From contig AP024673.1 of assembly GCA_025998675.1 (NCBI GenBank), forward strand, positions 2,426,562-2,490,561: a stretch of DNA of 64,000 nucleotides, in the 5' to 3' direction. The notes under the pieces are model-generated. The model was not told where the DNA came from. It searched no databases and saw only the letters and a program-made list of their open reading frames with translations. Every line of letters begins with the position of its first letter. The stretch's first letter is position 1. Positions 52,515-56,904 of this stretch are shown here, piece after piece. The stretch comes from Fimbriimonadales bacterium (GTDB taxonomy: Bacteria > Armatimonadota > Fimbriimonadia > Fimbriimonadales > GBS-DC). A program made the translations under genes and the position numbers.

Positions 52515-52574
52515 GATTCCGTCTCTACACGGCGAACGACGGCGTCTATGCGAGGACGCCGCGCGACCGAACGG

Positions 52575-53603
52575 ATGGACTACGACAGCCCATGGAAGGA
52601 GTTCATCACGGTCTTCTTCCGCGACCTGATTCGCTTTCTGTTGCCCAACCTCTACGCGATGATTGACTGGAGCAAGGAGCCGCAGTTCCTCGACACGGAG
52701 CTTCGGCGCATCACGCCCCGCAGCAAGATTGGTAGACGGCATGTGGATCGGCTGGTGCGCGTATGGCTGCTCAACGGCGAGGCGTATTGCGTACACATTC
52801 TGATAGAGGCGCAATCTCAGTTTATCGTCGAGCTGGCGAAGCGCGTCTTCACCTACTTTGCGCGTGCATGGCTTCAGCTGGACACCGACATCATCTGCAT
52901 CGTGATACTGGCGGATAAAAATCCAGACTGGCAGCCGGACGCCTTTGTGCGCGAGTTGCCCGGCACGCGGCTGGAGTTCCGCTATCATACAGTGAAACTG
53001 CTCAAGATGGATGTCGCCCAGCTGGAAGAGCAAGCCCGCGCACGCAACGCTGCTGCGCTGATGCTGCTGGCGTTCCGTCGCGCGATGGAGACCGAGCGCG
53101 ATGTGGACGCACGCCTTGACGCGCGAAAACAGCTCGTGCGCCTGCTGTGGGAATATGGGTATAATGAGGACGATAAGGCGCAGATCCTGCGCCTGATGGA
53201 GTGGGTGCTGATGTTGCCAGAAACTTACGAACAGCAGGTCGAGGAGTTCATCGAGCAGTATAAGCGCGAGCGCAAGACAACCTTCGTCTCGCGCATCGAG
53301 CGGCACGCCATCGAGAAAGGCATACAGCAGGGTATCCAGCAGGGTATTCAGCAAGGCATCCAGCAGGGCATTCAGCAGGGTATTCAGCAAGGTATTCAGC
53401 AAGGGCGCGTCGAGTCGCTACGGCGAGCGGTGATGCGCGTGCTGACGCGCCGTTTTGGCGCAGACGCCGAGAGCGCACGCACGCTGCTGGAGCAAATCGC
53501 AGTCCCGGAGGTGCTGGAACTGCTGCACGATGCGGCTCTGGATGCCGGAGACCTGCAGGCGTTTCTGGAGCAGGCGCGCGCGTTGCAGCCGTCGCAATCT
53601 TAA
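52575..53603 (+). CDS. Rpn-family PD-(D/E)XK nuclease / transposase-like protein
   Basis: A 342-aa protein of the Rpn (recombination-promoting nuclease, formerly transposase_31/DUF4351) type. It starts MDYDSPWKEFITVFFRDLIR with the nuclease-like RHVDRLVRVWLL, CVHILIEAQSQ (Glu-x-Gln core) and KRVFTYFARAW in the first 130 residues. The repeat GIQQ occurs seven times in a row (53319-53402), followed by a DUF4351-like C-terminus (SLRRAVMRVLTRRFG). The start is placed at the ATG of MDYDSPWKEF rather than 52548. It is solitary; the stop overlaps convergent surE by 4 nt. Confidence 0.8.
   Translation: MDYDSPWKEFITVFFRDLIRFLLPNLYAMIDWSKEPQFLDTELRRITPRSKIGRRHVDRLVRVWLLNGEAYCVHILIEAQSQFIVELAKRVFTYFARAWLQLDTDIICIVILADKNPDWQPDAFVRELPGTRLEFRYHTVKLLKMDVAQLEEQARARNAAALMLLAFRRAMETERDVDARLDARKQLVRLLWEYGYNEDDKAQILRLMEWVLMLPETYEQQVEEFIEQYKRERKTTFVSRIERHAIEKGIQQGIQQGIQQGIQQGIQQGIQQGIQQGRVESLRRAVMRVLTRRFGADAESARTLLEQIAVPEVLELLHDAALDAGDLQAFLEQARALQPSQS
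53319..53402 (+). repeat. In-gene 12-bp tandem repeat encoding (GIQQ)7
   Basis: Seven units of GGNATHCARCAR, each 12 bp, encode Gly-Ile-Gln-Gln. Repeat units differ at third positions, so they are old, but copy number may vary by slippage without breaking the frame. Confidence 0.9.
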
Positions 53604-54439
53604 CCCGCGCCGTCCGTAATCAGGGGCAGCTTGCGGAGCCACTCCTGCATCGGTTCCAGCAGGGTGTACGCCGTGAAGTCCAGATGCACGGGCGTGATGG
53701 ACACATACCCATGCGCAACGGCGTACACATCTGTGCCTGGCTGGTCGCGCTCCTCCACCAGACTGCCGCTGAGCCAGTAGTACGGTCGCCCCGCCGGGTC
53801 GACGCGCGACTCGATTCGGTCGGCATACTGCCGCCTGCCCAGCGCGGTAATCTGGTAGCCCCGAAGCGCGTGAATCGGCAGGTTCGGCACATTCACATTC
53901 AGAAAAGTGTGCGGGGGCAGCGGGTGTTCCTGCAGCAAGCGTGCGATGTTCAGCGCGGCGACGGCGGCGGTCTCATAGTGCATCGGGGGCAGCTCGCTCT
54001 GGAACGGTTCGTTGGTCGATTCGGCGCGCGCCAGCGGCAGCACCTCCTCCGCTGCCAGCGACACCGCGAAGGCGTTAATCCCGTGAATCGCGCCCTCAAT
54101 CGCCGCGGCAATCGTGCCTGAGTAGGTCAAATCCCAGCCGAGATTGGGACCGGCGTTAATCCCCGACGCCACCAGATCCACCTGATGGTTCAGCACGGCG
54201 TGCGCGCCCAGCGTCACGCAGTCAGTCGGCGTGCCGTTGGTCGCGTAGGCAACCGAACCATCGGGCAGGTGAATCCGATGCAGGCGCAGGGGCTTGTGCA
54301 GCGTGATGGAATGCCCTGTCGCGCTGCGCGGGCGGTCGGGCGCCACGATAAACACTTCGCCGAGGGGCTTCAGCCGCTGCGCCAGCGCCCGAATCCCCTC
54401 GGCGTACACGCCGTCGTCGTTGGTCACCAGAATCCGCAT
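53600..54439 (-). CDS. surE: 5'/3'-nucleotidase SurE
   Basis: A metal-dependent phosphatase acting on nucleoside monophosphates, important in stationary-phase survival. It is 279 aa, starting MRILVTNDDGVYAEGI, with the metal Asp pair in NDDG, VVAPDRPRSATGHSIT-like segment (IVAPDRPRSATGHSIT), NGTPTDCV and SGINAGPNLGWDLTYSGTIA. The start is the ATG sharing one base with the sdhB stop (TGATG); a GTG one codon upstream is also possible. It is coupled to sdhB, an unexpected pairing. Confidence 0.95.
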   Translation of the reverse strand: MRILVTNDDGVYAEGIRALAQRLKPLGEVFIVAPDRPRSATGHSITLHKPLRLHRIHLPDGSVAYATNGTPTDCVTLGAHAVLNHQVDLVASGINAGPNLGWDLTYSGTIAAAIEGAIHGINAFAVSLAAEEVLPLARAESTNEPFQSELPPMHYETAAVAALNIARLLQEHPLPPHTFLNVNVPNLPIHALRGYQITALGRRQYADRIESRVDPAGRPYYWLSGSLVEERDQPGTDVYAVAHGYVSITPVHLDFTAYTLLEPMQEWLRKLPLITDGAG

Positions 54440-55254
54440 CACTCTGCGCCCTCGCCCACCAGCTTATCGGGGATAATGCCCAGCCACTTTTTCAGGCGGT
54501 AGATGGTCGTGTCGCGGTTCAGCTCGGCTATCGCGCGGGTGAGCGGAATCCCCTTCGGGCACACCTTGACGCAGTTTTGCGCGTTGCCGCAGCCCGTGAT
54601 GCCCTCCGGTCCCGACAGCACTTCCAATCGCTCGTTGGCTAAGGTCGCGCCCGCGTAGTGCAGGTTGAACAGGCGCGCCTGCGCAATCGGCGCGGGTCCA
54701 ATGAACGCGGAATGGTCGCCGTACTGCGGGCACGCCTCCATGCAGCAGCCGCAGGTCATGCACCGCGCGAAGGCGTAGCGTAGCTCGCGAGTCGCGTCGT
54801 CCACGCGCGGTCCAGGTCCCAGATCGTGATAGCCATCCATGGGAACCCACGCCTGCACCTTTTTGAGCGCCTCGAACATCCGCGAGCGATCCACAATCAG
54901 GTCGCGCACAACGGGGAACTTGCTCATCGGCTCCAGAGTCACCTCGATAGTATCCCCCTTGTGCACGCCCACCTGATCAATCAGCGCCGCGCATGATTGC
55001 TGCACCATCCCGTTGACAACCATCGTGCAGGTACCGCACACCTGCTCCAGACACGCGGCTTCCCACGCAGGCGGCGAGACCGCCTGACCACTGCCGTCGA
55101 CGGGATTGCGCTGAATCTCCATCAAGCAGGAGATAACATTCATATTCGGTCGGTAGGGCAGCGTGAACTCCTGCCAGTACGGCTTCTGGTTCGGACCGTC
55201 CTGCCGACGGATTTTGAGACGAATGTTTCGGATAGAGCCGTTGCCATTATGCAT
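54439..55254 (-). CDS. sdhB: Succinate dehydrogenase/fumarate reductase iron-sulfur subunit
   Basis: A 271-aa electron-transfer subunit of complex II. The [2Fe-2S] ligands are in AACLEQVCGTCTMVVNG with a later Cys in QQSCAALI. The [4Fe-4S]/[3Fe-4S] clusters use CMTCGCCMEACPQYG and NCVKVCPKGIP. GGAGG (55263-55267) and TATAAT (55274-55279) precede the start. The flavoprotein and membrane subunits are not in the window, so sdhB is separated from sdhA/C, or is from an FrdB-type set. Confidence 0.93.
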   Translation of the reverse strand: MHNGNGSIRNIRLKIRRQDGPNQKPYWQEFTLPYRPNMNVISCLMEIQRNPVDGSGQAVSPPAWEAACLEQVCGTCTMVVNGMVQQSCAALIDQVGVHKGDTIEVTLEPMSKFPVVRDLIVDRSRMFEALKKVQAWVPMDGYHDLGPGPRVDDATRELRYAFARCMTCGCCMEACPQYGDHSAFIGPAPIAQARLFNLHYAGATLANERLEVLSGPEGITGCGNAQNCVKVCPKGIPLTRAIAELNRDTTIYRLKKWLGIIPDKLVGEGAE

Positions 55255-55279: not shown

Positions 55280-55346
55280 CCTGCCGTGTGCCCCAGCTGG
55301 TACTCGCAGGTATCGATGAGGGTATACTGAGAATGGAGGCAACCGT

Positions 55347-56561
55347 ATGGCGCTCACAATAGTCAGCTTCATCGGCAAAGGAAGTCGCTCTGAGCAATCT
55401 CAGGGCTACAGAACCACACGGTATCTCTTTCCACAGCCATGGGAAGGCGCTCCGGATGTGTCGGTCTTTGGAGTTGCCCTACTGAAATACTACGAACAGC
55501 GTCTTGGCAAACCCGTTGACCACTGGATTGTTCTGGGAAGTCCCCAGTCCAACTGGGATGCGCTTCTTGAGGCAGTACCCGAGAATAAATGGGACGACGC
55601 GCTCAATCGCATCCACGAAGATGTGCGCGTAGCAGTGGCAAATGAGGAAAAATTGCCCAGTTCATCAGGATGCGGACAACTGACGCAATCTGTCCTCAAC
55701 CGATGGAGTGAAGCTCTCTCCCGCCGACTGGAACATACAACCATCAGGTGTCAACTGGTCGGCTGGTGTGAAGACACGGATGTCCAGCTTGAGATGTGGC
55801 GCGTCATCAGTCAGGAAGTTCCTGAAGGAAGCGAGTTGATTCTGGATATTACCCACGGCTTCCGCCACCAGCCAATCCTGCTCGCGCCAATGGTAATCCT
55901 GTTGAGCCTTTTGCGAAATATCAGCCGCGTCGAGCTCTACTACGGTGCGCTGGACATGCCAGGCTCAAAGCAGGATGGCTCGCGCGTACTCAAATTAGAC
56001 CTCTTCCCGGAGTTGATTACCTACATACGACATGTCAGCCTGTACCAGATGAGTGGAGACTATGAGCCTCTGATGCGGGAGCTAATTTCGGATGACCCGA
56101 ATCTGTGCGAGGAACTGCAAAGCATCGCATTTCTGGAGCGTACGAATCGCCCTGTGAATTCCAAGAGGGTGGGAGAGTTCCTGAGCAGGGCGTCTTCCAA
56201 AATATCCCAGAATCATCCATTGCAGGGTGATTTGTATACTCTGATGCAGAAGGCGATGGAAAAACACCAGCAGCCGAACCACCTCCTGCGTATGATGGCA
56301 CGCGCCGATGCAGCGATGAAACATCGTGACTACCTGGTGGCTTATACCCTGCTTCGGGAAGTCACGGAGCGTATAGAACCAGCTAACCAAGAAGAGGAAA
56401 AAATATTAAATGCCTTCCGCACAGTGCGAAATGCTTTGGTTCACGCAAGCGACAAGAAAGCGGCTAAATATCTCCAGAGCCACGAGACTTTGTACAATCT
56501 CTACAAAGAAGCGCGCCAGGTAGTCGAAAACCACCTGCGTAGCGGGGGTGGCAGTTCATAA
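55347..56561 (+). CDS. Orphan CARF-HEPN ribonuclease, TM1812/Csx1-like
   Basis: A 404-aa protein of the CRISPR-associated TM1812 (DxTHG) family. It starts MALTIVSFIGKGSRS with a Rossmann-like CARF pattern and holds the family signature LDITHG (DITHG, residues 167-171) followed by FRHQPILLAPMVILL. The C-terminal third is helical and ends with the HEPN motif RNALVH (Arg361, His366), the Rx4H core of a metal-independent RNase. In type III systems such proteins are switched on by cyclic oligoadenylate and degrade RNA. GGAGG precedes the ATG and a TATACT box lies upstream. Its codons are visibly more A/T-rich than its neighbours', which suggests transfer. No cas genes or array are nearby. Confidence 0.82.
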   Translation: MALTIVSFIGKGSRSEQSQGYRTTRYLFPQPWEGAPDVSVFGVALLKYYEQRLGKPVDHWIVLGSPQSNWDALLEAVPENKWDDALNRIHEDVRVAVANEEKLPSSSGCGQLTQSVLNRWSEALSRRLEHTTIRCQLVGWCEDTDVQLEMWRVISQEVPEGSELILDITHGFRHQPILLAPMVILLSLLRNISRVELYYGALDMPGSKQDGSRVLKLDLFPELITYIRHVSLYQMSGDYEPLMRELISDDPNLCEELQSIAFLERTNRPVNSKRVGEFLSRASSKISQNHPLQGDLYTLMQKAMEKHQQPNHLLRMMARADAAMKHRDYLVAYTLLREVTERIEPANQEEEKILNAFRTVRNALVHASDKKAAKYLQSHETLYNLYKEARQVVENHLRSGGGSS

Positions 56562-56562
56562 A

Positions 56563-56904
56563 TCAAAACTGCCACGGCTGCTGCTTTAGCCACCAGAACG
56601 GTGCGAGGACGATGCCAACATACCCTGCAAGCGCGCCCACCACGCAACACATGCCCACCACCGACAGCACGACGGAGAGAATGCCCATCACATAGCCCGC
56701 GACTGCCATCCCGCGCTCGCTGGGGTTGCCGAACCCCGCGTCAATAGTGTTCATCGCGCCCTTGCCCAGAATCCACGCCAGAATGCCCAGAATCAGCGGC
56801 AGCGGCAGGCAGCCGAACCACAGCCCCGCCGTAAGCAGCGTCGCCAACGCGACAATCCCCAGCACCAGGCTCGCCACTGCGCTGGTGTTCGTCGTCTGCT
56901 GCAT
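56563..56904 (-). CDS. DUF4190 small membrane protein
   Basis: A 113-aa protein with three hydrophobic helices separated by short polar turns. NTSAVASLVLGIVALATLLT is the DUF4190 start, and a SERGMAVAGYVMGILSVVLS segment follows. The function of the family is unknown. It has an AGAGGGGG ribosome binding site and a TATACT box (complement of 56924-56929). It is convergent with the CARF-HEPN gene, 1 nt apart. Confidence 0.75.
   Translation of the reverse strand: MQQTTNTSAVASLVLGIVALATLLTAGLWFGCLPLPLILGILAWILGKGAMNTIDAGFGNPSERGMAVAGYVMGILSVVLSVVGMCCVVGALAGYVGIVLAPFWWLKQQPWQF

Follow-up and report, generated by a model that had tools for sequence, protein, structure and literature searches.

The csx1-type gene and its surroundings

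The 64-kb stretch of DNA analysed here, referred to as the window, carries on its forward strand a csx1-type gene (55347–56561), an open frame of 404 codons with an ATG start and, as read from the sequence, a GGAGG ribosome-binding site at 55335–55339 on the same strand. The 404-aa product scores 93.1 bits against the NCBIfam model TIGR02221 (cas_TM1812; cut-off 76.25) and 29.8 against the CRISPR_DxTHG domain model (cut-off 21), PADLOC matches it best to a CARF-HEPN model (2.3e-50), and Pfam returns HEPN and CARF matches that are both sub-threshold. The CARF domain occupies about residues 1–243 (55347–56075, forward strand), as indicated by the TIGR02221 match to residues 4–243 and by the alternating strands and helices of the structural model, and contains a DITHG (DxTHG) motif at residues 167–171 (55845–55859, forward strand). 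A C-terminal helical HEPN region extends over about residues 291–400 (56217–56546, forward strand) and includes the catalytic Rx4H motif, R361-NALV-H366 (56427–56444, forward strand). Both motifs had been named in an earlier note made from these letters alone and are borne out by an alignment of 67 homologues, in which D167, T169, H170, R361, N362 and H366 are invariant.

The structure prediction and profile search proposed in that note both return Csx1 enzymes as the best PDB matches. An AlphaFold2 model built on the 67-homologue alignment has a mean pLDDT of 93 and a pTM of 0.86, and Foldseek places it closest to the Csx1-Crn2 protein of Marinitoga sp. (8y7g, 1.8e-12), followed by Sulfolobus islandicus Csx1 (2.3e-8) and then by Csm6 proteins; Marinitoga Csx1-Crn2 entries are also its best matches by profile search (1.8e-15). 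The window protein is a member of the TM1812/Csx1-type CARF-HEPN family.

The neighbours are as earlier described. To the left and divergent lies sdhB (succinate dehydrogenase iron-sulphur subunit; 54439–55254, reverse strand), a housekeeping gene present in all 18 family genomes, in most of which it is adjoined by surE. To the right and convergent is a gene for a DUF4190-like membrane protein (56563–56904, reverse strand), whose match to Pfam PF13828 (2.4e-6, 27.7 bits) falls below the cut-off of 35. No CRISPR array and no Cas10 or Cmr homologue was found in the 64-kb window, and the earlier statement that it holds no CRISPR repeat, cas gene or Cas10 is upheld for arrays and for Cas10/Cmr homologues. 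Promoter and terminator scans over the csx1-type gene found none, and its G+C content is 52.3% vs 63.8% for the window. A perfect 9-bp inverted repeat, GTGGCAGTT/AACTGCCAC, lies at 56548–56575, where the csx1-type and DUF4190-like genes converge; it is possibly a shared terminator, and was not flagged by the terminator scan. Elsewhere in the window, 52548–53603 encodes a protein resembling Rpn/YhgA-like nucleases (Transposase_31 and DUF4351 matches sub-threshold), in which a tandem 12-bp repeat at 53291–53410 encodes (IQQG)n; homologues of this gene adjoin surE in genomes G003, G013 and G005.

A comparison of the insertion site with relatives, also proposed in advance, yielded a junction without the csx1-type gene in G003, the closest relative, whose SdhB is 97% identical to that of the window. 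The distance from the sdhB start to the DUF4190 end is 60 bp in G003 and 1308 bp in the window, and the DUF4190-like neighbour is present at the empty site with 76% identity. This spacing comparison places the segment absent from G003 at approximately 55285–56565.

A shortened HEPN region

In the alignment, the residues corresponding to E338, which is invariant, and R361 are separated by 23 residues in the window protein vs 39–58 in the other 66 of the 67 homologues, and the segment missing from its HEPN region amounts to 16–35 residues with respect to all 66. Lost with it is a near-invariant HEPN arginine, present in 65 of these 66 proteins (Arg357 in the model of the G003 ortholog). Alignment and models place a short loop, residues 341–347 (56367–56387, forward strand), at this position. 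The HEPN helices of the window model span residues 291–308, 312–325, 329–340, 348–366 and 379–398, with the seven-residue loop between the third and fourth of these, and most HEPN blocks have a pLDDT greater than 90; in a model of the G003 ortholog made by the same procedure (pLDDT 93.5), the corresponding segment forms helices at 347–351 and 354–367. One to two of the helices found in the homologues are missing from the window protein, a full HEPN helix set being usual in the TM1812/Csx1 family but not a known defining feature of it. The deletion preserves the reading frame. Misreading of the frame at the gap was rejected as an explanation, as the mere 69 nt from E338 to R361 leave no room for the segment in another frame.

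The earlier proposal that both halves of an activated RNase are retained therefore stands for the Rx4H motif and not for the HEPN region as a whole, which is incomplete by a loss that had been overlooked. Because a HEPN helix and the near-invariant arginine are absent, RNase activity is not to be assumed, and alignment and model together suggest that it may be impaired. The deletion can be regarded as a natural experiment on what a cyclic oligoadenylate (cOA)-activated RNase can do without.

Type III-B components and homologues in other genomes

The genome to which the window belongs, that of a Fimbriimonadales-like bacterium of the phylum Armatimonadota, is a single contig of 2.99 Mb, estimated to be 98.85% complete. 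A search of it for cas10 and CRISPR arrays, as the earlier note had advised, made with sequence queries and on chosen stretches of the contig, found one complete III-B operon, cmr1-cas10-cmr3-cmr4-cmr5-cmr6, at 1201.5–1207.9 kb, which is 1.27 Mb from the csx1-type gene. Its Cas10 (551 aa), the product of the single Cas10 locus detected, has a GGDD cyclase motif at residues 365–368, and its sequence contains no HD dipeptide. Neither a CARF protein nor any other effector was seen adjoining this operon. A second CARF-HEPN gene, unlinked, is located at 1768.4–1769.5 kb (PADLOC 1e-110; TIGR02221 133 bits) and has an intact RNDLAH motif and a full-length HEPN region; relatives of this paralogue in other genera adjoin cmr6 or csm-like genes. 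An I-C-like cas1-cas2 pair and a CRISPR array are found at 738–742 kb. The same 37-nt repeat recurs in about 120 copies in six arrays, at about 150, 740, 1875, 2118, 2397 and 2711 kb, one of which lies 28 kb left of the window, and when the array neighbourhoods were judged by eye, recognisable cas genes were present only beside the cas1-cas2 array. The csx1-type gene is not adjacent to cas genes, whereas such adjacency is usual for type III effectors, though not required, and it is an orphan only locally, within the window.

As RNA, the repeat forms a hairpin of 12 bp (z −4.2) with a AUUGAAAC tail, which is the usual crRNA 5' tag. No Cas6 was matched in this genome by TIGR01877 or PF10040, with positive controls, leaving room for processing by a Cas5c-type enzyme or by a divergent Cas6; Cas6 may also be supplied in trans to such systems. 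As neither of these two models found a Cas6 and Cas1 and Cas2 are I-C-like, the supply of crRNA to the Cmr complex is presumptive, which speaks against the effector reading preferred below.

Close homologues of the window protein in the family-level search are those of G003 (62% identity), G008 (48%) and G013 (44%), the last of which, from an uncultured Fimbriimonadales bacterium, is encoded directly 3' of cmr6; homologues in G019 and G178 lie within about 5 kb of Cas10. A single-sequence query found no relatives in the genome-contig search, while an alignment query found 131. Across bacterial phyla, Cas10 lies within 10 kb at 52 of 78 homologous loci, and a further 14 have another cmr- or csm-like gene or a CRISPR array nearby, most of the remaining 12 being stretches of less than 10 kb. 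Among 255 genomes of the phylum, Cas10 is present in 21 of 23 with a family match vs 43 of 232 without one (Fisher p 2e-12, uncorrected for relatedness), and in all seven genomes with a match better than 1e-50. The two genomes with a family relative and no Cas10 match are G012, which is 91% complete in 330 contigs, and G044. In G010, a small ORF (L022, 1009–1398) directly follows a CARF-HEPN gene and appears Csx15-like by eye, making it a possible ring nuclease.

Relocation, proposed role and relation to known systems

The csx1-type gene has moved between genomic sites. In G003 and G008 the homologue follows a gene that we take to be DUF1385-like. The corresponding DUF1385 site in the window's genome is without csx1, and in three congeners (G002, G006 and G011) the DUF1385 gene adjoins the gene found next after csx1 in G008, csx1 itself being absent from the junction. 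The site between sdhB and the DUF4190-like gene is empty in G003, and the gene has therefore arrived there. The earlier suggestion of import is weakly supported: arrival at the site speaks for it, but the gene tree pairs the window protein with that of G003 (100/96), then joins them to G008 and G013 (100/98) and only then to other Armatimonadota (100/100), and low G+C is common to the operon-linked copy. That the gene was recently imported from a virus or from some distant lineage was rejected on the grounds of this grouping with three congeners and then with Armatimonadota, and of the lack of viral relatives, none having been found in the viral_contigs scan. Low G+C was likewise rejected as proof of import, as the operon-linked G013 homologue is equally low (51%). 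G003 itself has a Cmr operon without an adjoining effector and two unlinked CARF-HEPN genes. Just after cmr6 in the G003 Cmr locus (L187, 4354–6000), a gene resembling DNA methyltransferases and the ORF accompanying it possibly form a restriction-modification pair.

The window protein is probably a relocated Csx1-type effector that serves, in trans, a single dispersed III-B system. The effector-less Cmr operon, the GGDD Cas10, the arrays, the cas1-cas2 pair and the Cmr-linked homologue of a congener support the idea, already raised in the earlier note, that the protein serves a distant type III locus in trans. Family, fold and motifs are direct observations, as are genome content, the empty site and the operon linkage of the congener homologue; from these we infer the ligand, activation and RNase activity of the window protein. 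In the proposed mechanism, crRNAs from the scattered arrays would load the Cmr complex, and target RNA would switch on the GGDD cyclase of Cas10. The resulting cOA, by analogy with the nearest structural relatives most likely cA4, would diffuse to the CARF dimer of the window protein and also to its paralogue, upon which the HEPN RNase would open and cut RNA. As such a signal is diffusible, linkage would be dispensable, and the gene would be free to move out of the operon to its place between sdhB and the DUF4190-like gene. The most uncertain step of this mechanism is HEPN activity, since a helix-bearing segment kept by every examined homologue is gone.

The shortening allows the protein to be read instead as an RNase-impaired sensor, in which CARF would bind cOA and HEPN, lacking a helix, would cut poorly, so that the protein might act as a cOA sink, as a CARF ring nuclease or as a partner of the 1768-kb paralogue. 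This is possible but the less likely reading: the 23-residue spacing without the near-invariant arginine is confined to the window protein (1 of 67), a seven-residue loop takes the place of the two ortholog helices, and the paralogue, whose HEPN region is of full length and contains RNDLAH, is at hand in the same genome, yet R361, N362 and H366 are kept, the frame is open, the model stays confident in most HEPN blocks, and HEPN has not changed clearly faster than CARF (unique changes in the window and G003 proteins of 9 vs 5 and 8 vs 10 with two outgroups). Somewhat more tentatively still, a relocated Csx1 minus a HEPN helix might have become a cOA-binding regulator, a signal sink or a rewired nuclease beside an intact paralogue, within a III-B system with its cyclase, arrays and effectors dispersed along the chromosome.

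The same deletion might mark a decaying leftover, a gene stranded after relocation and drifting without function, and the branch changes in the window vs G003 lineages (37 vs 21, p 0.048, with G008 as outgroup; 33 vs 25, p 0.36, with G013) lean slightly that way. The frame of 404 codons is nevertheless intact and has a ribosome-binding site, all invariant CARF and HEPN residues are kept, and identity to G003 is 0.76 at second codon positions vs 0.41 at third positions (dN 0.38, dS saturated). There is no clear sign of decay, the relative-rate difference being marginal, and we consider this explanation improbable. Least probable is a stand-alone defence or stress RNase answering the cyclic nucleotide of a non-CRISPR cyclase. 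It would suit a window without cas genes or arrays and a housekeeping neighbourhood, but the genome holds a complete Cmr operon, arrays and a Cas10 predicted from its sequence to be cyclase-competent, and the family tracks Cas10 phylum-wide, with most homologous loci across phyla adjoining cas10. With Cas10, Cmr and arrays in the genome it was rejected as first choice; the stand-alone pathway of the earlier note, with another source of cyclic nucleotide, is unneeded and nothing favours it.

The preferred reading, that of a trans-acting effector, has a precedent in the survey of Hoikkala et al. (2024, PMC11229360), in which 133 cyclase-positive type III loci were without effectors and effectors elsewhere in the genome were suggested. 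With its one detected Cas10 locus, the genome described here looks like a clear instance of that proposal. Effectors so far from Cas10 imply that locus-based surveys count such Cmr operons as effector-less, and the recurrence of the dispersed-effector pattern in G003 makes it testable. The window protein is an otherwise normal family member that stands out by the unusual layout of its genome and by a structural loss that has no explanation as yet.

The loci of Hoikkala et al. (PMC11229360) resemble the present case in their GGDD Cas10 without an HD dipeptide, in the lack of an adjoining effector and in the effectors proposed to lie elsewhere in the genome. Signalling between loci was proposed for them, whereas here one Cas10 locus was found and the evident effectors are the products of the two unlinked CARF-HEPN genes. 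With the TM1812/TIGR02221 family (Csx1 group; PADLOC CARF2-CARF_HEPN) the window protein shares a profile score over the cut-off, the DxTHG and Rx4H motifs and the order CARF, helical linker, HEPN; it differs in being encoded outside a cas locus and in a HEPN region short by 16–35 residues, including the near-invariant arginine. The G013 homologue, 44% identical and in the same clade (100/98), differs in lying inside a Cmr operon and in having a full-length HEPN. S. islandicus Csx1 (PDB 6qzt), a cA4-activated effector of a type III-B system, matches in fold and is of the same effector kind, but is archaeal and only 14% identical to the window protein. The best structural and profile match is the Csx1-Crn2 protein of Marinitoga sp. 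(PDB 8y6z and 8y7g, the latter with cA4 bound); the window protein lacks its fused Crn2 ring nuclease, and the Marinitoga HEPN keeps the conserved-arginine segment (DFREKY).
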